NCBI GenBank assembly: GCA_014584695.1
Contig: JACTMI010000024.1
Coordinates: forward strand, 1 to 64,000
DNA length: 64,000 bases
From: Acidobacteriota bacterium
GTDB lineage: Bacteria > Acidobacteriota > Thermoanaerobaculia > Multivoradales > JAGPDF01
Direction: 5' to 3'
Each line of letters begins with the position of its first letter. Position 1 is the first letter of the stretch. Below the pieces are notes generated by a model, which saw nothing but the letters and a program-made list of their open reading frames with translations, did not search any database and was not told the origin of the DNA. The position numbers and the translations under genes were made by a program. Positions 4,669 through 64,000 of the stretch are shown piece after piece.

Positions 4669-5634
4669 TCAGAACAGCTCGAGCCCCCAGAGGTCGTGGA
4701 GGTGGACGATGCCGCGCAGCTGGCGATCGGGAGCGGTCACGAACAGCGAGGTGATGCGGTGATCCTCCATGACTTTGAGCGCGGCCGAGGCGAGCTCGCC
4801 GCCGTCGATCGTCCGCGGGTCGCGCTTCATGCACTCGACGGCGGTGCGGCGCAGCAGCGACTCGTCCCGCTCCAGCGCGCGGCGCAGGTCGCCGTCCGAG
4901 ATGCAGCCGAGCAGCCGCCCGGCGCCGTCGACCACGGCGGTGATGCCGAAGCCCTTGCGCGACATCTCGTAGATGGCGTCGCGCATCGGGGTGTCGGCGG
5001 CGACGGCGGGCAGGTCCGCGCCCGAGTGCATGAGCTGCTCGACCCGCAGCAGCCGCTTGCCGAGCTGGCCGCCGGGGTGGAGGCGGGCGAAGTCCTCCGG
5101 CGTGAAACCGCGCGACTCGAGCAGGGCCATGGCGAGCGCGTCGCCCAGAGCGAGCGTCGCGGTGGTCGAGGCGGTGGGGGCGAGGTTGAGAGGACAGGCC
5201 TCCTTGTCGATGGCGACCGACAGATGGAGATCCGCCGCGCGCGCGAGCGGGCCCTGGGGATTGCCCGACATCGCGATCAGCGTGATGCCCAACCGCTTCA
5301 GGGCCTCGACCAGCCGCAGCAACTCCTCGGTGGTGCCTGAGTAGGAGGCCGCCAACACCACGTCGCCCTCGACGATCATCCCCACGTCGCCGTGAATCGC
5401 CTCGGCGGGATGCAGGAAGAACGCCGGCGTGCCGGTCGAGGCGAGGGTGGCGGCGACCTTCTTCATCACCAGGCCGCTCTTGCCCATGCCGGTGCAGACC
5501 ACGCGGCCGGCGGCGGCGCGAATCGTCGCCACCGCGCGGTCGAAGCTCTCGTCGAGCTGCGTCACCACCCCGGCGACCGCCGCGGCCTCGATCTCCAGCA
5601 CCAGCCGGGCGACGTCGCGGGGGGCTCGGGGCAT
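4669..5634 (-). CDS. kdsD: D-arabinose 5-phosphate isomerase (SIS + two CBS domains)
   Basis: Converts ribulose 5-phosphate to arabinose 5-phosphate, the first committed step to KDO. The 321-residue protein has an N-terminal SIS sugar-isomerase domain (TGMGKSGLVMKKVAATLAS, SYSGTTEELLRL, the active-site His in AEAIHGDVG) followed by two CBS domains from about residue 200. Length and domain order match KdsD/KpsF. The ATG at 5634 was chosen because the upstream frame overlaps kdsA. It lies 47 nt downstream of kdsA and 8 nt before kdsC in the same operon. Confidence 0.96.
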   Translation of the reverse strand: MPRAPRDVARLVLEIEAAAVAGVVTQLDESFDRAVATIRAAAGRVVCTGMGKSGLVMKKVAATLASTGTPAFFLHPAEAIHGDVGMIVEGDVVLAASYSGTTEELLRLVEALKRLGITLIAMSGNPQGPLARAADLHLSVAIDKEACPLNLAPTASTTATLALGDALAMALLESRGFTPEDFARLHPGGQLGKRLLRVEQLMHSGADLPAVAADTPMRDAIYEMSRKGFGITAVVDGAGRLLGCISDGDLRRALERDESLLRRTAVECMKRDPRTIDGGELASAALKVMEDHRITSLFVTAPDRQLRGIVHLHDLWGLELF

Positions 5635-15708: not shown

Positions 15709-15784
15709 GGCCAGGTAGCTCAGTTGGTAGAGCATGCGACTGAAAATCGCAGTGTCGGCGGTTCAATTCCGTCCCTGGCCACCA
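15709..15784 (+). tRNA. tRNA-Phe (GAA)
   Basis: 76-nt cloverleaf with the CCA end encoded. The 7-bp acceptor GGCCAGG pairs with CCTGGCC, the D arm GCTC/GAGC is present, the anticodon stem TGCGA/TCGCA closes the loop CTGAAAA with anticodon GAA, and the T arm contains GTTCAATTCC. Discriminator base A. Confidence 0.97.
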
Positions 15785-58100: not shown

Positions 58101-58182
58101 GGGTGGAGTCGACGAGATCGGTGAGCAGCAGCGTCTTGAGCGACGCCGTGCCGGACGTCGAGCTCGTGGGGCCGGTGCTCAT
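55150..58182 (-). CDS. Fusion: class III nucleotide-cyclase domain + Ser/Thr protein kinase + TPR repeats
   Basis: 1010 residues. Residues 12-195 are a class III nucleotidyl-cyclase homology domain (TDLVDST with Asp22, DKTDGFLLLF with Asp65, GIHVGEV), followed by a protein kinase domain (about 240-500) with Gly loop LGEGGFGEVWLARH, Lys267, catalytic HKDIKPANI (Asp364) and DFG (386-388), MAPE at 428-431. A membrane helix (537-556) leads to at least eight TPR-like repeats of about 42 residues (to about 985). Kinase residues are complete, so it should be active. The cyclase may be catalytic or a sensor. ATG at 58182 overlaps the upstream stop (ATGA). Confidence 0.9.
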   Translation of the reverse strand: MSTGPTSSTSGTASLKTLLLTDLVDSTRWVEKLGDQRAAELFARHDRLARALLDRFEGREIDKTDGFLLLFERPIHAVAYALAYHEALGKLDQETGVKLEARAGIHVGEVFLRENPPAEIAQGAKPVEVEGLAKPVAARLMSLARGGQTLLSRGAFDLARRATAGWTGFGENLKWLAHGSYLFKGLDEPVEVFEVGVEGWAPLVPPTPSDKARRLGGDETVLGWRPAPGQAVPQRPNWAFERKLGEGGFGEVWLARHQKTHDRRVFKFCFELERVRALQREVTVCRLLRETLGNRPDIARILDWNFDEPPYFLEFEYTEGGNLLEWIEASGGFDAVPLAVRLEVAAQVADAVAAAHSVGVLHKDIKPANILVTAGPAGEPRARVTDFGIGMITDGSRLADLGITVLGMTELERPQTLGSQLSGTRIYMAPEVLEGRPSTTQADIFSLGVLIYQLVVGNFGKALAPGWERDVADELLREDLSAFVDGRPERRVASALDVARRLRSLEQRRAERALELAAAERAEADRRALERARRRRKVAIGAGLAVTLFGVAMAFQARRIAAEAERANREASAAQQVTEFLIGLFEVSDPSEAKGNAVTAREILDRGAEKIEQELADQPVVRAKMMDAIGTVYLQLGLAEPAGKLLHGAFELRREHLGPGHLETANSVHDLGWLAEKTGDWREAEARYREALALRRAQLREDDSQVAKLLDDLGYVFVEQARWDDAREAIGEGLAIRERLSGPDSPQVAQSLTTLGFVHFQKGEFRPAADLLRRVVAIRERAFGPDSNEVASDLNNLAAQLRELGESDEAARLYERAIEIKRRHLGDQHPELGTLYNNLASVHQDQGRLAEAEAMFHAALAVRLAALGESHPLTGLSLNNLGTCLWFAGKVDQAGELWARALRVREAALGPDHPLVAVTLANLALLELHAARFDLAGRHLERALAIQKRAFPDDSPLMQTTLVAAEALARALGQTAEAEAFAARLAALEAAAAAGGGRLPPRPPVRLPRR

Positions 58183-60092
58183 CCGGCCGCGATTCCGAGA
58201 TCGACCAGCGTCTCGTCCCAGGCGAGGCGGGCCCGTCCAGCCTTCTTGGCCAGGTAGAGGCCCCGGTCGGCGCGCTCGAACAGCCCTCGCCAGTCTTCGC
58301 CGGCGCGCAGCAGGCCGCCACCGAGGCTGGTGGTGACGCGCAGGTTCTGCGGCGCGCCGGCCAGCTCGAAGCTGGCGAGCGCCGGCGCCAGAGTCTCGGC
58401 GCGGCGGGCGGCCGAGGAGCCGTCGATGTCGGTCCAGAGCACGGCGAACTCGTCGCCGCCGATCCGGCAGGGCAGGTCGGTCCAGCGCACCGAGCCGCGC
58501 AGCAACTGCGCCACCCGGCGCAGCACCAGGTCGCCGACCATGTGCCCGAGCGTGTCGTTGACCAGCTTGAAGCGGTCGACGTCGACCAGCAGCAGCGCCA
58601 GCGACAGGCCGCCATCGCGCGCGCGCTCGACCGAGCGCAGGATCTGCTCCTCGAAGCAGCGGCGGTTGAAGATCCCGGTGAGCTCGTCGGTCAGCGAGCG
58701 CGCCTCGATCGTGGTCAGCTCCTCGCGGGTCCGCTGCAGGAAATCGAGCGCGCGCTCGAGGTCGCGCGCCCGGCGCCGCAGGTCGCCGACCAGTCGCTGC
58801 TCGGAGGCGACCAGATAGGCGCAGGTCCGCTCCAGCATGCCGGCCAGGACGTCGGGGCGCTGGGCACGCAGCCGCGAGTAGGCCTCCTGGTCGACCACGA
58901 TCAACCGGAGGTCGGAGGCGGCCAGGGCGGTGGCGGTGCGGCGGTGGCTGGCGGTGAGCAAGGCGAGCTCGCCGAACGGGTCGCCGGGGCCGAGGCGCTT
59001 GGCGGGGCGACCGTGCTCGAAGCGGAGCTCGACCTCGCCCGCCTCGACCACGAACAGCCGGTCGCCCGGCTCGGCACGACGGAAGATGGTCTCGCCGGCG
59101 GGGTAGGTCCGCACCTGGCAGTAAGGGACGATCGCGGCGACCTCGGCGGGGGCGAGGCGGGCGGGGGTGGCGTCGAGGTCGAGCTCGGCGAGCACGACGC
59201 CCGTCTCTTCCCCTGCCGCGAGCTCGAGCGGCTCGAATGGCACGGCCGCGCCGGCTCGTGCGCTGCGCTCCTCGACGCTCTCCGAACGCTCCAGACAGAA
59301 GCGCTGGATCGTCGCCCGGACGGCGGGCTGCCGGCCGGCGATCGCGACCACGGCCGAGCGGTCGAGCTCGAGCAGCTCGCACTCGGTGGCGGCGATTACG
59401 GTCGCGCTGCGCGGGCCGCCGGTCAGCAGGGAGATCTCACCGAAGAAGTCCCCCGAGGCCAGGCCCCGGACTTCGCGCAGCCGGCGGTCGAGCCCCTGGA
59501 CGTAGACCCGGGCCTCGCCGCTCGCGAGCACGAAGAGGCTGCCTCCCGGCTCGCCCTCGGCGACGATGACCTGTCCGGCGGCGTAGGTCGCGTGGTGGAG
59601 GCCACGGATGACCTCCACCAGCTCGGCGCGCGAGAGCTCGGAGAAGAGCGGCGAGCGGGAGACCTCCTCCGGCACCGGCTGGGTGGGGAGGACCAAGCCC
59701 CCCGGCACCGCGGGCACGGCGCGCTGCGCCTGTTCGTCCCGCTCGCGGATGAGGTCGGCGAGCGCCTGCTCGACCTCGCGGGCGTCGGGACGGATCCGCT
59801 GCAGTCGCTTGAGGACGGCGATCGCCTTGGCGGTGAAACCGGCGGCGGCGAGCTCGCGGCCGACCGCTTCGAGCAGCGTCGCCGCCTCGGCGCTCTTGCC
59901 GCCGAGCGACAGGACGTCGGCCAGGCGCAGGCGCAGGCTGGGCTCTTCGGGCCGCTCGGCGACCGCGGCCCGCAGCAGTTCGGCCGCCCGGTCATAGCGA
60001 CGCCGGGCGACCAGGGCGTCGACCTCCCGCAGCGAATCGGTGGCACCGAGCAACCTGAGGACCTCTCGCACCTTCCCGTCGACCGCGGCCAC
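58179..60092 (-). CDS. Diguanylate cyclase with TPR-like N-terminus and two cyclic-nucleotide-binding domains
   Basis: 637 residues. Helical TPR-like region (1 to about 120), two cNMP-binding domains (about 148-265 and 315-430) with phosphate-binding cassettes FGEISLLTGGPRSAT (217-231) and FGELALLTASHRRTAT (373-388), a coiled linker, then a GGDEF domain with an exact GGDEF at 545-549 and an RWTD inhibitory-site motif (RxxD, 536-539) five residues before it. Predicted to make c-di-GMP under feedback control and to respond to cAMP or cGMP. Starts at GTG 60092. Overlaps the downstream cyclase-kinase gene by ATGA. Confidence 0.9.
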   Translation of the reverse strand: MAAVDGKVREVLRLLGATDSLREVDALVARRRYDRAAELLRAAVAERPEEPSLRLRLADVLSLGGKSAEAATLLEAVGRELAAAGFTAKAIAVLKRLQRIRPDAREVEQALADLIRERDEQAQRAVPAVPGGLVLPTQPVPEEVSRSPLFSELSRAELVEVIRGLHHATYAAGQVIVAEGEPGGSLFVLASGEARVYVQGLDRRLREVRGLASGDFFGEISLLTGGPRSATVIAATECELLELDRSAVVAIAGRQPAVRATIQRFCLERSESVEERSARAGAAVPFEPLELAAGEETGVVLAELDLDATPARLAPAEVAAIVPYCQVRTYPAGETIFRRAEPGDRLFVVEAGEVELRFEHGRPAKRLGPGDPFGELALLTASHRRTATALAASDLRLIVVDQEAYSRLRAQRPDVLAGMLERTCAYLVASEQRLVGDLRRRARDLERALDFLQRTREELTTIEARSLTDELTGIFNRRCFEEQILRSVERARDGGLSLALLLVDVDRFKLVNDTLGHMVGDLVLRRVAQLLRGSVRWTDLPCRIGGDEFAVLWTDIDGSSAARRAETLAPALASFELAGAPQNLRVTTSLGGGLLRAGEDWRGLFERADRGLYLAKKAGRARLAWDETLVDLGIAAG

Positions 60093-60121
60093 CCCCGGGC
60101 CGCCGCCGGCGAATCGGCCGC

Positions 60122-60150
60122 ATTATTCACCACCGGCCGGAGAGGTCCAA
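60122..60150 (-). promoter_or_regulatory. Candidate promoter of the signalling operon
   Basis: AATAAT (60127-60122, minus strand; 5/6) with TTGGAC (60150-60145) 17 nt upstream (weak -35). It lies in the 144-bp gap that also contains the his promoter on the other strand. Confidence 0.35.
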
Positions 60151-60198
60151 GCGGAGCGCTCCAGCGCCGCCGGGAGGAGGGCAGGGTGCGAGCTTCGC

Positions 60199-60227
60199 TT
60201 GACAGGCAGGGGCGGCATTGCTCTAAT
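60199..60227 (+). promoter_or_regulatory. Strong promoter of the aro-his operon
   Basis: TTGACA (60199-60204), a perfect -35, 17-nt spacer, TCTAAT (60222-60227), a 5/6 -10. Transcription should begin near 60234-60237, at or next to the ATG of the leader ORF. Best promoter match in the window. Confidence 0.78.
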
Positions 60228-60236
60228 GCGCGGCGC

Positions 60237-60323
60237 ATGAGCCGCCCGAACGACGCCCGCCGCACGCTTCGCGCAAGCGCCCCGCGCTGGCGTCGCTCCG
60301 GCCATCACCACGTGGTGAGCTGA
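60237..60323 (+). CDS. His-rich leader peptide
   Basis: 28-residue ORF, Arg-rich, ending in GHHHVVS: three His codons (60303-60311), two Val, Ser and stop at 60321-60323. Leader ORFs with runs of the pathway amino acid precede attenuation-controlled operons, and hisZ, hisG and hisD follow 1.5 kb downstream. It has no Shine-Dalgarno, but its ATG lies 9 nt after the -10, so it may be translated as a leaderless message. The His/Val codons also form a 12-nt palindrome, CACCAC/GTGGTG (60306-60317). Not a protein with a function of its own, by inference. Confidence 0.65.
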   Translation: MSRPNDARRTLRASAPRWRRSGHHHVVS

Positions 60324-60415
60324 CGGCCGGGGCTTTCCGTCCCGGCCGAACGGCCCGGGGCGAGGACATCCGAAATCGTTCGTTTCGCGAACCTCCTTCC
60401 GGCGCCGGAAGGAGG
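60324..60415 (+). promoter_or_regulatory. Candidate histidine attenuator / Shine-Dalgarno switch
   Basis: Segments: 1 = CGGCCGGG (60324-60331), 2 = CCCGGCCG (60341-60348), 3 = CGGCCCGGGG plus CGAGG (60351-60365), 4 = CCTCCTTCCGGC (60392-60403), 5 = GCCGGAAGGAGG (60404-60415). 1:2 pair perfectly; 2:3 pair with a one-base bulge (a 2-nt loop, so its innermost pairs would open); 3:4 pair over 11 positions with one mismatch and two G-U; 4:5 is a perfect 12-bp palindrome followed by TTTT. Segment 5 contains the Shine-Dalgarno of aroDE, 8 nt before its TTG, so 4:5 could block translation and perhaps act as a weak terminator. Pairings were found by eye. Confidence 0.6.
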
Positions 60416-60423
60416 TTTTGCTC

Positions 60424-61911
60424 TTGGCTGAACGCGCGACCCTGATCGCATCGCTGGTCGAGCCGCCCTCTTCGGACGGACGGGAGATCGCCGCGCTCGC
60501 CGGGCGGGCGGAGATGCTCGAGGTGCGCGCCGACCGGGTCGGCGATCTCGACCCGGACTGGCTGCGCGGCCTCTTCCCCGGCCGCCTCCTCTACACGTTG
60601 CGCAGCCGCGCCGAGGGCGGCGAGTTCAGCGGCGCGCGCGAGCGCCGTCGCCGCCGCCTCGCGGAGGCCTCGGCGGGCTACGACCTCGTCGACCTCGAGG
60701 GCGATCGCGACCGCGCGCCGGAGCTGCTCGATCAGATCGAGCCGGCGCGGCGAATCCTCTCCTGGCACGGCTCGGCGACCGACTTCTCCGGCCTGTCGTC
60801 CCGCGCCGCGCACCTGCTGTCGACGCCGGCGCGGTACTACAAGCTGGTGCCGACCGCCCTCCACTCCGGCGAGGACCTGGTGCCGCTCGCCCTGCTCGCC
60901 GAGCTGGGACGGAGCGACGTCGTCGCCTTCGCCGGGGGAGCGCGCGGCACCTGGACACGGCTGGTAGCGCCCCGGTTGGGCGCACCGGTGGTTTTCGCGG
61001 CGGCCTCGCAAACTCCGGCCGCCCCCGGCCAGCTCCCGCTCGAGCGTCTGCGGGGCGACTACGGGCTGCCCGAGCTGCCGCCCGCGGAGAGGCTCTTCGG
61101 CGTGGTCGGCGACCCCGCGCTCGGCTCGCTGTCGCCGCGGCTGCACAACCGCGCCTATCGTCGGCTCGGCATCGCGGCGCTCTACCTGCCCTTCGAAGTC
61201 GATCACTTCGGCGACTTCTGGCTCGAGCTGCTCGAGACCGGGACGCTGGCGCGGCTCGGCCTGCCGCTCGCCGGGCTCTCGGTGACCACCCCGCACAAGG
61301 AGGTGGCGTTCGCCATCGCCGGCGCCACCAGCCCGCTCGCGACACGGCTCCAGGCGGTGAACACGCTGACGCCGCGCGCGGGGGTGTGGGAGGGCGAATC
61401 GACCGACGCCGAAGGGGTGGTGGCGGCCCTGCGCGCGCGCGGGGTCGACCCGCGCGGCCGGCGCGCCGCCGTGCTGGGCTGCGGCGGGGCCGGGCGCGCC
61501 GCGGCGCTCGGCCTGTCGCTCGCCGGCGCGCGGGTGGCGATGGTCAACCGCGGCGCGGAGCGCGGGCTGGCGGCGGCCAAGAGCCTGGGGCTGCCCTTCG
61601 TTCCGCTCGCCGATCTCGGCGTCGCCGCCTTCGATCTCTTCGTCCACGCGACGCCGCTCGGGCGCGGGCCCGCCGACGAGCTGCCGCTGCCCATCGCCCG
61701 CCTTTCGCCCGGCACGGCGGTGGTCGATCTGGTCTACGGCGAGGCGCCGACCCGCCTGGTGGCGGAGGCGGCGCGACGCGGCCTGGTCGCGGTCGACGGC
61801 CGCGAGGTGCTGCTGCGCCAAGCGGTGCCGCAGTTCCGCGTCATGACCGGCCGCGAGCTGCCGGTCGACCTCGGCCTCGAAGCGCTCGGCCTGACGGAGG
61901 TCTCGCGGTGA
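60424..61911 (+). CDS. aroDE: Fused 3-dehydroquinate dehydratase (type I) / shikimate dehydrogenase
   Basis: 495 residues carrying two consecutive steps of the shikimate pathway. N-terminal type I dehydratase (1 to about 215): SWHGSATD with His115 and the Schiff-base Lys140 in YYKLVPTA. C-terminal shikimate dehydrogenase (about 222-490): LSPRLHNRAY, Lys292 in TTPHKE, Asp328 in ESTDAEG, NADP fold GCGGAGRAA (352-360), and a late RQAVPQF. Both halves keep catalytic residues. TTG at 60424 is 8 nt after GGAAGGAGG; TTG at 60418 is too close. First structural gene of the operon, overlapping hisZ by GTGA. Confidence 0.94.
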   Translation: MAERATLIASLVEPPSSDGREIAALAGRAEMLEVRADRVGDLDPDWLRGLFPGRLLYTLRSRAEGGEFSGARERRRRRLAEASAGYDLVDLEGDRDRAPELLDQIEPARRILSWHGSATDFSGLSSRAAHLLSTPARYYKLVPTALHSGEDLVPLALLAELGRSDVVAFAGGARGTWTRLVAPRLGAPVVFAAASQTPAAPGQLPLERLRGDYGLPELPPAERLFGVVGDPALGSLSPRLHNRAYRRLGIAALYLPFEVDHFGDFWLELLETGTLARLGLPLAGLSVTTPHKEVAFAIAGATSPLATRLQAVNTLTPRAGVWEGESTDAEGVVAALRARGVDPRGRRAAVLGCGGAGRAAALGLSLAGARVAMVNRGAERGLAAAKSLGLPFVPLADLGVAAFDLFVHATPLGRGPADELPLPIARLSPGTAVVDLVYGEAPTRLVAEAARRGLVAVDGREVLLRQAVPQFRVMTGRELPVDLGLEALGLTEVSR

Positions 61912-62879
61912 GACTGACGGCGGGCCTGCCGGCGGGGGTCACGGCGCTGCTGTTCGAGTCGGCGCGGCGGCTGCGCCGACTCGAGAGCGACCTGGTCTCC
62001 CGGCTCGAGCAGGCCGGTTTCACCGAGGCGATCCTGCCGGTGCTCGATTACTTCGCCCCCTACGAGCCGCTGCTGCCGCCCGCGGCGCGAGCGGAGCTCT
62101 ACCGCTTCGCCGACCGCGACGGCGAGCTGCTCGCGCTGCGCTCCGACTTCACGCCGCTCTTGGCCCGTCTCGTGGCGCCCCACCTGTCCGCCCTCGAGCT
62201 GCCGCTGCGGCTCTTCTATCGCGGCGACGTGGTCCGCTGCCCGGAGCGGGGGAGCCGGCGCGCGGCGGAGATCCACCAATTGGGTGGCGAGATCCTGGCG
62301 GCCTCCGGCGCCGCCGAGGCGGGCGAGATCGAGGCGACGGTCGCCTTCGCCCAACTGCTGGCGGCCGCGGTCCCGGGCCAGGCGCGGCTGGTGCTCGGGC
62401 TCGCCGGCGCGCTCGACGACCTGCTGCTGAACGCGGTCGGCGCCGAACGGGCGGCGGCGCTGGCGGGGGCGGTGGCGCGGCGCGAGCTGGCGGCGGCGCG
62501 CGGCACCAGCGCGGCGCTGGCCGAGATCGTCGAGCGCGGCGCGCCCGCCTCCACCGCGGCGCTCGGGGCGCGCGGCGCCGCGGCGCTCGAGCGGCTGCAG
62601 GCGATGAGCGAGCGCGTCGCGGCCGCGGCGCCGGGCGTCGCCGTGAGCATCGACCTCGCCGAGTTCGCCGACTACTCGGCGCTGGCGACGCCGGCGGCGG
62701 CGCGGGACTTGAGGCCCTACTACGACGGCCCGGTGTTCCGCGCCTACCTGCCCGGCCGCGGCCGCTCGATCGGCGGCGGCGGCCGCTACGACCGGCTGTT
62801 CGCCGCGCTCGGCGCGCCGGTCGCCGCGATCGGGTTCTCGCTGCGGCTCGACGTCCTCGCCGGGGAGCCTGGCGCGTGA
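61908..62879 (+). CDS. hisZ: ATP phosphoribosyltransferase regulatory subunit
   Basis: 323 residues, a paralogue of histidyl-tRNA synthetase catalytic domains without tRNA function. Seen: LESDLVSRLEQAGFTEAILPVLDYF, LRSDFTPLLARLVA (motif 2 region), FYRGDVVR, EIHQLGGEIL, and the Gly-rich motif GRGRSIGGGGRYDRLF. Forms a hetero-octamer with the short HisG encoded immediately downstream. GTG at 61908 overlaps the aroDE stop; its own stop overlaps hisG (GTGA). Although aminoacyl-tRNA-synthetase-like, its length and neighbour argue for HisZ. Confidence 0.93.
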   Translation: MRLTAGLPAGVTALLFESARRLRRLESDLVSRLEQAGFTEAILPVLDYFAPYEPLLPPAARAELYRFADRDGELLALRSDFTPLLARLVAPHLSALELPLRLFYRGDVVRCPERGSRRAAEIHQLGGEILAASGAAEAGEIEATVAFAQLLAAAVPGQARLVLGLAGALDDLLLNAVGAERAAALAGAVARRELAAARGTSAALAEIVERGAPASTAALGARGAAALERLQAMSERVAAAAPGVAVSIDLAEFADYSALATPAAARDLRPYYDGPVFRAYLPGRGRSIGGGGRYDRLFAALGAPVAAIGFSLRLDVLAGEPGA

Positions 62880-63505
62880 TCCGGATCGCTCTGCCCAAGG
62901 GGAGGACCGGCACCGTCGCGCGTGCCGCGCTCGCCGGGGCCGGGTACGACCTGAGCGGCCTCGACGGCGACGGCCGCAGCTTGCGCCACCGCCTGCCGGC
63001 GGCCGGGCTCGAGGTGCTGCTGCTCAAGGACCGCGACCTGCCGCTCTACGTCGAGCGCGGCATCGCCGACTGCGGCGTCGTCGGGCGCGACATCCTCGAA
63101 GAGGTCGACGGCGATCTACTGGCGCCGCTCGAGCTACCCGGCAGCCGCTGCCGCCTGTCGCTGATCGGCCCGCGGGGCAGCCGCCCGCCGGCTCCTGGCG
63201 GCCAGGTCCGGCTGGCGACCAAGTACCCGCGCACCGCCGAGCGCTGGCTCGCGCGCCAGGCCTGGAGCGCCGAGATCCTCGAGCTGTCGGGTTCGATCGA
63301 GCTGGCGCCGGTGCTGGGGCTGGCCGATTTCGTCCTGGACATCGTCGAGACCGGCGCGACACTCGCCGCCCACGGTCTCGAGGAGCTCGTCCAGGTGCGC
63401 GAGATCGCCCCCTGTCTGATCGTCCACCGTGCCGCCTGGCAGACGCTGCGCGGCGAGCTGGGGGATCTGATCGGCCGCTTGGAGGGGGCGGAGGTGGGCC
63501 GATGA
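62876..63505 (+). CDS. hisG: ATP phosphoribosyltransferase, short form
   Basis: 209 residues, first enzyme of histidine synthesis. Short-form HisG lacking the regulatory C-terminal domain, hence the HisZ partner. Motifs: RIALPKGRTGT, LLKDRDLPLYVERGIADCGVVGRDIL, ATKYPRTAERW, and the phosphate-loop ADFVLDIVETGATLAAHGL. GTG at 62876 overlaps the hisZ stop and its stop overlaps hisD by ATGA. Confidence 0.96.
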   Translation: MIRIALPKGRTGTVARAALAGAGYDLSGLDGDGRSLRHRLPAAGLEVLLLKDRDLPLYVERGIADCGVVGRDILEEVDGDLLAPLELPGSRCRLSLIGPRGSRPPAPGGQVRLATKYPRTAERWLARQAWSAEILELSGSIELAPVLGLADFVLDIVETGATLAAHGLEELVQVREIAPCLIVHRAAWQTLRGELGDLIGRLEGAEVGR

Positions 63506-64000
63506 GGCCGGCGCTGCTCGTCGCGGCCGCGGACAGCGCGGCCGGCCGGCGCCTGCGGTCACGCTTCGGCGGCCGCCTCGACGCGGTGCTCGATGCCGCG
63601 GTCGAGTGGGCGGCACGGCGGATCTGGCGCGCCATCGAGCGGGGAGGCGATGCCGCGCTGCTCGCGGCGGTCACCGAGCTCGACGGCTGGTCGCCGGAGT
63701 CGACCGCCGCGCTCCGCCTGCGCCCGCTGCCCGAGGACGCCGGCTGGCGGGCGCTCCCCGCGGGCTTCGCGGCCGCCTTCGAGCAGGCGCTCGCGGCGGT
63801 CGAGAGCTGCCACCGGCACCGCCCGCCGACGCCGCACGTGGTCGAGCTCGACGGCGTCGAGATCGAGCACCGGGTGCAGCCGCTCTCGCGGGTCGGCGTC
63901 TACGTGCCGGGCGGGCGGGCCTGCTATCCGTCGACGGCGCTGATGACCGTGGTGCCGGCGCGCGCGGCCGGTGTCGGCGAGATCGTGGTCGCGACCCCGG
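63502..64000 (+). CDS. hisD: Histidinol dehydrogenase, N-terminal part (cut by window end)
   Basis: First 166 codons. The conserved EHRVQPLSRVGVYVPGGRACYPST segment and TALMTVVPARAAGVGEIVVATP identify HisD, the zinc enzyme of the last two steps of histidine synthesis. The N-terminal about 95 residues before that are less typical but helical as in the family. ATG at 63502 overlaps the hisG stop (ATGA). The remaining about 260 residues, including the zinc ligands, lie beyond the window. Confidence 0.93.
   Translation, partial: MRPALLVAAADSAAGRRLRSRFGGRLDAVLDAAVEWAARRIWRAIERGGDAALLAAVTELDGWSPESTAALRLRPLPEDAGWRALPAGFAAAFEQALAAVESCHRHRPPTPHVVELDGVEIEHRVQPLSRVGVYVPGGRACYPSTALMTVVPARAAGVGEIVVATP

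Follow-up and report, generated by a model that had tools for sequence, protein, structure and literature searches.

Upstream of the shikimate-pathway gene aroDE, in a 64,000-nucleotide stretch of an Acidobacteriota genome (contig JACTMI010000024.1, positions 1 to 64,000 of the forward strand; hereafter the window), lies an RNA leader that is very probably a ribosome-mediated attenuator sensing both histidine and tryptophan and controlling the whole aroDE-his-trp operon, with a final hairpin that would both terminate transcription and hide the Shine-Dalgarno (SD) sequence of aroDE. An original prediction, made from the letters of the window alone, had described a histidine attenuator here, with a promoter TTGACA-17-TCTAAT, a 28-codon open reading frame (ORF) ending in RWRRSGHHHVVS, five segments able to pair as 1:2, 2:3, 3:4 or 4:5, and a palindrome 4:5 whose 3′ arm is the aroDE SD followed by TTTT. 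The promoter is exact in the window sequence, the ORF ends as described, folding of the window recovers all four pairings, and the 3′ arm does carry the SD (GGAGG, 60411-60415, 8 nt upstream of the TTG at 60424). The parts, with segments numbered as in that prediction and positioned from folding of the window, are as follows:

60199..60227, +, sigma-70-type promoter TTGACA-17-TCTAAT, read in the sequence (TTGACA 60199-60204, 17-nt spacer, TCTAAT 60222-60227)
60237..60323, +, leader peptide ORF of 28 codons, MSRPNDARRTLRASAPRWRRSGHHHVVS (ATG 60237, stop TGA 60321-60323)
60288..60290, +, single Trp regulatory codon TGG, position derived from the ORF
60303..60311, +, three His regulatory codons, read in the sequence
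60325..60332, +, segment 1, GGCCGGGG, partner of 2, with a 1-nt gap behind the leader stop
60338..60347, +, segment 2, CGTCCCGGCC, partner of 1 or 3
60355..60365, +, segment 3, CCGGGGCGAGG, partner of 2 or 4, the antiterminator or anti-sequestor
60390..60402, +, segment 4, AACCTCCTTCCGG, 5′ arm of the terminator/sequestor hairpin
60405-60417 (to 60419 with TTTT), +, segment 5, CCGGAAGGAGGTT, 3′ arm with the aroDE SD, overlapping the TTTT at 60416-60419

Sequence comparison brings out these parts and their conservation, helices that exclude one another, and a match between leader codons and operon genes. AroDE is present in 56 of 59 relatives, and the leader motif is found at 35 of these 56 aroDE loci; of the 21 loci that lack it, 11 belong to family f3, while the genomes of the other 10 have a match elsewhere to the covariance model R1 introduced below (eight strong and two weak, the latter in G013 and G023). 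In an alignment (A1) of 27 of the 35 motif-bearing leaders, eight near-identical rows of genus g6 being omitted, all four helices are conserved: helix 1:2 has 90.6% of cells paired and two-sided changes in 4 of 7 pairs, helix 3:4 has 88.9% and 3 of 10, helix 2:3 has 89.3% and 3 of 8, and helix 4:5 has 91.7% and 7 of 11. Taken as alternative sets over the same 27 sequences, 1:2 with 3:4 (ON) is paired in 89.6% of cells, with two-sided changes in 7 of its 17 pairs, values equalled in 0 and 2 of 500 shuffles, and 2:3 with 4:5 (OFF) is paired in 90.7%, with such changes in 10 of 19, equalled in 0 and 0 of 500, in both cases uncorrected for relatedness. Sliding the partners by 1-3 columns drops pairing to 38-65%, as against the 88.9-91.7% of the four helices in register. 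These mutually exclusive helices join the end of the ORF to the terminator/sequestor hairpin, and in the leaders displayed the stop codon lies at or adjoins segment 1, a placement that fits a ribosome at the stop covering that segment if its footprint is taken to extend about 12 nt beyond the start of the A site. The conservation check that had been proposed thus found the His codons, the stop placement and the four helices kept in those relatives whose operon includes his genes.

A covariance model of the OFF structure built on A1 (R1) matches 57 of the 72 genomes of the window's order at E≤0.01, the weakest probably by chance, and 50 of the 72 at E≤4e-10, with a single place in each. These 50 comprise the 27 genomes of A1, 14 more of genus g6, which were not used for R1 yet have leaders nearly identical to training rows, and nine new ones, which are independent. 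Eight of the nine independent leaders (G011, G019, G026, G029, G032, G034, G037, G045) precede hisZ (seven) or trpE (one) and not aroDE, so that the element stays with the his-trp unit. A strong match occurs in one of 18 f3 genomes (G035), and across the class R1 matches 66 of 148 genomes at E≤1e-4. Matches in G064 (before aroDE), G028 (C24) and G129 had no convincing leader or no related gene and do not enter the counts on leaders given below. The covariance-model search that the original prediction had called for therefore returned a widespread element with compensated changes in all four helices.

The upstream end of the leader is likewise recurrent: among 41 leaders examined, the promoter-like pair with the best score contains an exact TTGACA in 34. 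The leader ATG lies 9 nt downstream of the −10 in the window and 6-12 nt past it in 17 of the 38 leaders with a located ATG, including all six f1 leaders examined, and these short distances suggest that the leader ORF in the window is perhaps leaderless.

Leader codons and operon genes

Beyond the window the gene run continues into the trp genes, and the operon as a whole reads aroDE-hisZGDCBHAFIE-trpEGDCFBA, 17 genes. We surveyed the codons of 40 leaders (genus g6 being represented by five), of which 32 have classified operons; the other eight (three ‘?’, three ‘H?’, two ‘HT?’) abut contig ends or have downstream genes that were not examined. All 40 have Trp and/or His within the last 14 codons, and the mean number of Trp plus His per 14 codons is 4.75 in the leader frame versus 0.75 and 0.1 in the other frames, the leader frame having been picked by eye and a second candidate frame with an ATG existing in only 4 of the 40. 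His codons are mixed, with 63 CAC and 58 CAT. Each leader is thus a short predicted ORF with codons for amino acids made by its operon, as is usual for ribosome-mediated attenuators.

The codons follow the genes. Trp is present in all 28 classified leaders whose operons have trp genes and in none of the four whose operons lack them (Fisher p=2.8e-5, uncorrected for phylogeny), that is, in 23 of 23 his+trp, 5 of 5 trp-only and 0 of 4 his-only leaders, and 16 of the 23 his+trp leaders have two or more. The pair HisHis occurs in 23 of 27 classified leaders with his genes versus 0 of 5 without (his+trp 19/23, his-only 4/4, trp-only 0/5). The his-only leaders read RDLVHHHKMT (G011), RGVHHHHGMS (G026), SVVVHHHPVI (G027) and GGMHHRHGP (G013); these operons are counted as his-only, the trp genes of the four genomes being on other contigs or set apart by intervening DNA. 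The trp-only leaders read CWRGRAQHRLS (G002), RWRSHVHLLGA (G007), RWRSHVHLHGA (G005), VWWCVRSRS (G035) and WWWLSHIHWTGV (G029); among them G002, of the same genus as the window, has aroDE-trp without his genes. Four of the classified operons, three marked HT* and one marked T*, depend on genes located on separate contigs. Because the his-only cases span three genera in three families and the trp-only cases four genera in three families, several independent changes are likely on this sequence evidence. Of the histidine attenuator originally predicted, the His codons therefore stand; sensing of histidine alone does not, given the Trp codons, the trpEGDCFBA genes beyond the window and the absence of Trp from the four leaders without trp genes.

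The his operon is split in G011 (L130), G026 (L131) and G013 (L132), where hisF-hisIE-trp or hisIE-trp lies elsewhere, and no strong covariance-model match was found at the relocated genes. In G013 (L132, 4821-8185) a gap of about 3.4 kb separates trpD from trpG in an otherwise tight trp operon. Four genomes, G005 (L134), G001 (L135), G060 (L145) and G061 (L146), showed only divergent or long-form hisG, on other contigs; outside the joint operon, then, another his pathway may have taken its place.

A proposed switch and its alternatives

We infer from these parts that the leader ORF is translated, that ribosomes stall in it, in which direction the switch runs, how its output is divided between termination and SD masking, and that it responds to the two amino acids. 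Transcription would start at or just upstream of the leader AUG. When charged tRNA-His or tRNA-Trp is short, a ribosome would wait on the His or Trp codons and leave segment 1 free; helix 1:2 would form, segment 3 would capture segment 4 once it is made, and hairpin 4:5 would be delayed or prevented, so that RNA polymerase reads on and the aroDE SD stays open. When both amino acids are plentiful, the ribosome would reach the stop just before segment 1 and cover it; helix 2:3 would form, segment 4 would be free for segment 5, and with hairpin 4:5 transcription would end at the U-run and the SD would also be buried. Folding of the window RNA to 60426 gives 1:2 and 3:4 when a ribosome occupies the last His codon and 2:3 and 4:5 when it occupies the stop, which, together with the conserved helices, fits the alternation first proposed for this locus.

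Folding of the leaders as a group divides according to when it is done. At equilibrium the finished leader shows no switch: for the window RNA extended by six nucleotides, and over 43 leaders, the ensemble favours 4:5 about equally in both ribosome states, the full-leader differences over the 43 being −0.004 (stop minus last codon) and 0.006 (stop minus first codon). The switch must therefore be kinetic and decided during transcription. At the decision step, when segment 4 is complete and segment 5 not yet made, we measured how far segment 4 is held by upstream RNA in 42 leaders (L119, which has no good stem, was excluded, and the arm of L106 was set by hand). With the ribosome on the first His or Trp (or Tyr/Phe) codon the mean is 0.54, versus 0.37 at the stop, with 28 leaders up, 9 down and 5 within 0.05; a shuffled control gave a difference of 0.014 (sd 0.032, maximum 0.095 of 30). 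The window leader gives 0.81 and 0.82 versus 0.44 at the stop (arms set by a cruder rule), and Escherichia coli trpL, by the same method, 0.62 versus 0.00. The folding check thus gave a bias of the expected sign at the co-transcriptional step before segment 5 and failed for the equilibrium fold.

Besides the equilibrium result, several observations weigh against our reading. Nine of the 42 leaders go in the wrong direction at the decision step. Placing the ribosome on the last regulatory codon instead of the first gives a weaker effect, a difference of 0.100 with 22 leaders up and 13 down (the shuffled control covers the first codon only). Covariation beyond conservation is modest: two-sided changes affect 7 ON pairs (11 cells) versus 2-6 pairs (2-11 cells) with slid partners, and 10 OFF pairs (19 cells) versus 3-9 pairs (4-14 cells), while the ON pair-type and covariation scores are attained by 36 and 17 of 500 shuffles. 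Since slid partners still give two-sided changes, the strength of the case is in conserved pairing more than in covariation. A simple consensus scanner calls no promoter at the window leader, whose −10 has no A at position 2 as the scanner demands, and no terminator either, the T-run being only four. As for the codons, the trp-only leaders of G007 and G029 retain two separated His and that of G005 three, HH is absent from four his+trp leaders, and the window leader itself has only one Trp codon.

This last point, with three His codons against one Trp and the HHH block nearest the stop, would suit an attenuator sensing histidine only, in which the single Trp of the window is incidental. We consider this decidedly unlikely, as at least one Trp is present in every his+trp leader and none in the four leaders of operons without trp genes, as all five trp-only leaders keep Trp and lack HH, and as the trp genes follow in the same gene run. 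A somewhat better case, though still an improbable one, can be made for the same leader and helices with a purely translational output, hairpin 4:5 masking the aroDE SD without terminating. In the arms of 43 leaders (34 of the order and f17, 9 of f10, a sister family) a start triplet, counted irrespective of reading frame, lies 4-18 nt past the arm in 38, before which the purine arm resembles an SD, and 13 of the 34 leaders outside f10, a further point against termination, have no T-run of four; the scanner's failure to call a terminator at the window's four Ts points the same way. A T-run of 4-6 nevertheless stands right behind the arm in 9 of 9 f10 leaders and in 21 of the 34 others, and masking alone would directly silence just the first gene of a 17-gene operon. 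The SD of the first gene does, by sequence, lie inside the alternative hairpin, and we take the hairpin to be terminator and SD mask at once, the balance between the two probably differing between lineages.

That an ordinary hairpin and a chance ORF have come together here with no regulation at all deserves hardly any credence. The region is very G+C rich, so that short ORFs and palindromes are common, and at equilibrium 4:5 prevails irrespective of where the ribosome stands; but promoter, ORF, stop position and alternative helices are conserved, which already contradicts chance. The upstream neighbour (58179-60092) is on the minus strand, divergent from aroDE, for which reason the promoter and leader are assigned to the aroDE unit and the hairpin was rejected as a terminator of that neighbour.

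Relatives of the leader and known systems

Family f10 carries related leaders, of which we examined 29. Ten with five or more His have hisZ-like ORFs behind them (three were tested and match Pfam tRNA-synt_His, the others were recognized by tblastn or alike N-termini), although three of these ten have one Trp, a further point against a strict match of codons to genes. Eight have WW or WWW; aroDE lies behind five of them (by Pfam in L186, L188 and L190, by tblastn in L137 and L139), the ORF behind L194 resembles those of the aroDE-linked leaders, and no gene was assigned behind L142 and L197. The leader of L188 was read by eye, and that of L137 also has Tyr. The remaining eleven, two of them read by eye, have at least four Tyr/Phe among their last 14 codons, and the ORF behind them is of chorismate-mutase type (four were tested and match Pfam CM_2, the others have alike N-termini). 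His-, Trp- and Tyr/Phe-rich leaders share the same RNA plan, and by these sequence comparisons three branches are guarded separately in f10, whereas in the window's order his and trp are mostly under one predicted leader. A second model (R2), built from seven of nine f10 sequences (A5) with the coding part excluded and with terminator arms one column off-register in three of the seven, recovers the window leader at the same place (E=1e-5). Across the class R2 matches 28 of 145 genomes at E≤0.001, f10 genomes often in two to four places, and across the phylum it has matches in 14 of 396 genomes; on inspection no leader was seen at those outside the class in G240, G453 and G471. Segments 1-3 came out of register when order and f10 leaders were aligned together (A3), and no counts were taken from that alignment. 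We lean towards the view that these are homologous attenuators across the class, a scaffold re-targeted by leader codon swaps, in which joining of his and trp would have produced a His+Trp OR gate, opened by shortage of either amino acid, and splitting of operons would have let unneeded codons be lost or thinned.

Two leaders of other families, L172 (G090, f11), ending AHGWWNEL, and L179 (G140, f17), ending SWHWHHT, have ORFs behind them that look like AroDE, so this kind of leader may extend to more families of the class. In the phylum family f33, a short ORF ending CCCPICP (L207, G286) and a Cys-rich stretch (L205, G410) stand directly before terminator-like hairpins, behind which the ORF resembles, by eye, a sulfate adenylyltransferase; the two are candidate Cys attenuators.

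Known families do not account for the window leader. Neither the Rfam His_leader (RF00514) nor the Trp_leader (RF00513) matches window positions 60100-60500 at E≤5 or five related loci at gathering score, while E. coli control loci score 131.6 and 93.1 bits, respectively. In an Rfam scan of the whole window only a tRNA (15709-15781) reaches gathering score, with no T-box and no known riboswitch, and these were accordingly rejected as explanations of the leader. By analogy the leader probably works like E. coli hisL, with which it shares a His-codon leader peptide, alternative helices after it and a predicted terminator before biosynthetic genes; it differs in combining His with Trp codons, in having the SD within the last hairpin, in an ORF that is perhaps leaderless, and in an operon that starts with aroDE and also makes Trp. 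With trpL it shares a short leader with Trp codons close to its end, mutually exclusive hairpins and the decision-step bias, but leaders of the window's clade carry His codons too. Leaders for several amino acids are known, namely thrL (Thr, Ile) and ilvL (Leu, Val, Ile), in which one leader peptide likewise has codons for more than one end product; their products share a pathway branch, whereas the operon and leader described here bring together two pathways that are separate.

Masking of the SD is also found in the translational T-boxes of actinobacterial ileS and in the LEU element, a leucine-codon ORF that pairs with the leuA SD (both as described in excerpts of PMC1262725), and excerpts of PMC9413887 make a general remark on attenuators that sequester ribosome-binding sites. 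The LEU element, like the window leader, has a leader ORF, but T-boxes bind tRNA and the LEU codon run itself pairs with the SD (excerpts of PMC1262725), whereas in the window separate segments after the stop would switch, and many members of the leader family have a U-run at that same hairpin. His-rich leader ORFs with attenuator structures are described outside the Proteobacteria, before hisZ/hisS* in bacilli (PMC2965389) and among his attenuators of Firmicutes (PMC9413887), in another phylum and, in the excerpts of these two papers, without the Trp-His combination. Excerpts of PMC4833913 and PMC1183508 contain no description of such a leader, and the literature searched, which mostly left out subscription papers, yielded nothing on a leader combining His with Trp or on this leader family, so that an earlier report is possible. 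The comparison gives one RNA leader family a likely function and mechanism, and suggests a way for two pathways to share a single attenuator. Its natural experiments, in which sensor codons and controlled genes change together, make the statement that leader codons follow operon content testable in both directions, and one hairpin would join termination with SD masking.

The operon and its neighbours

The genes behind the leader agree with the order aroDE-hisZ-hisG-hisD originally read from the sequence, by NCBIfam matches of which that of hisG is above its cut-off and the others below:

60424..61911, +, aroDE, bifunctional type I 3-dehydroquinate dehydratase/shikimate dehydrogenase (matches to NCBIfam aroE and aroD that fall short of the curated cut-offs; start likely the TTG at 60424)
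61908..62879, +, hisZ (TIGR00443, 158.7 bits, below the 271.65 cut-off)
62876..63505, +, hisG, short form (TIGR00070, 153.2 bits, above cut-off)
63502..64000, +, hisD, partial, exiting the window (TIGR00069, below cut-off)

Past the window, best NCBIfam matches on the contig (L057) continue as hisD-hisC-hisB-hisH-hisA-hisF-hisIE-trpE-trpG-trpD-trpC-trpF-trpB-trpA, with hisH, hisF, hisIE, trpG (subfamily), trpD, trpB and trpA above the curated cut-off and hisC, hisB, hisA, trpE, trpC and trpF below it. The order leader-aroDE-his-trp recurs by tblastn in 15 further genomes, three of them traced only to trpD or trpE, and aroDE is single copy in the window's genome (G000). A shikimate gene behind an attenuator had at first seemed odd; since aroDE heads an aro-his-trp operon, it is no oddity.

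The divergent neighbour at 58179-60092 (minus strand) matches GGDEF (diguanylate cyclase) above cut-off and, more weakly, models of cyclic-nucleotide-regulator type. Lastly, the start of trpE (L057:5440-5480, 5.4 kb beyond the window end) contains a microsatellite, (TTC)n/(TCT)n with some ten units, which would encode a poly-Ser N-terminus if translation begins at 5436; judging from the sequence, gain or loss of units could put trpE out of frame, making phase variation of trpE possible.

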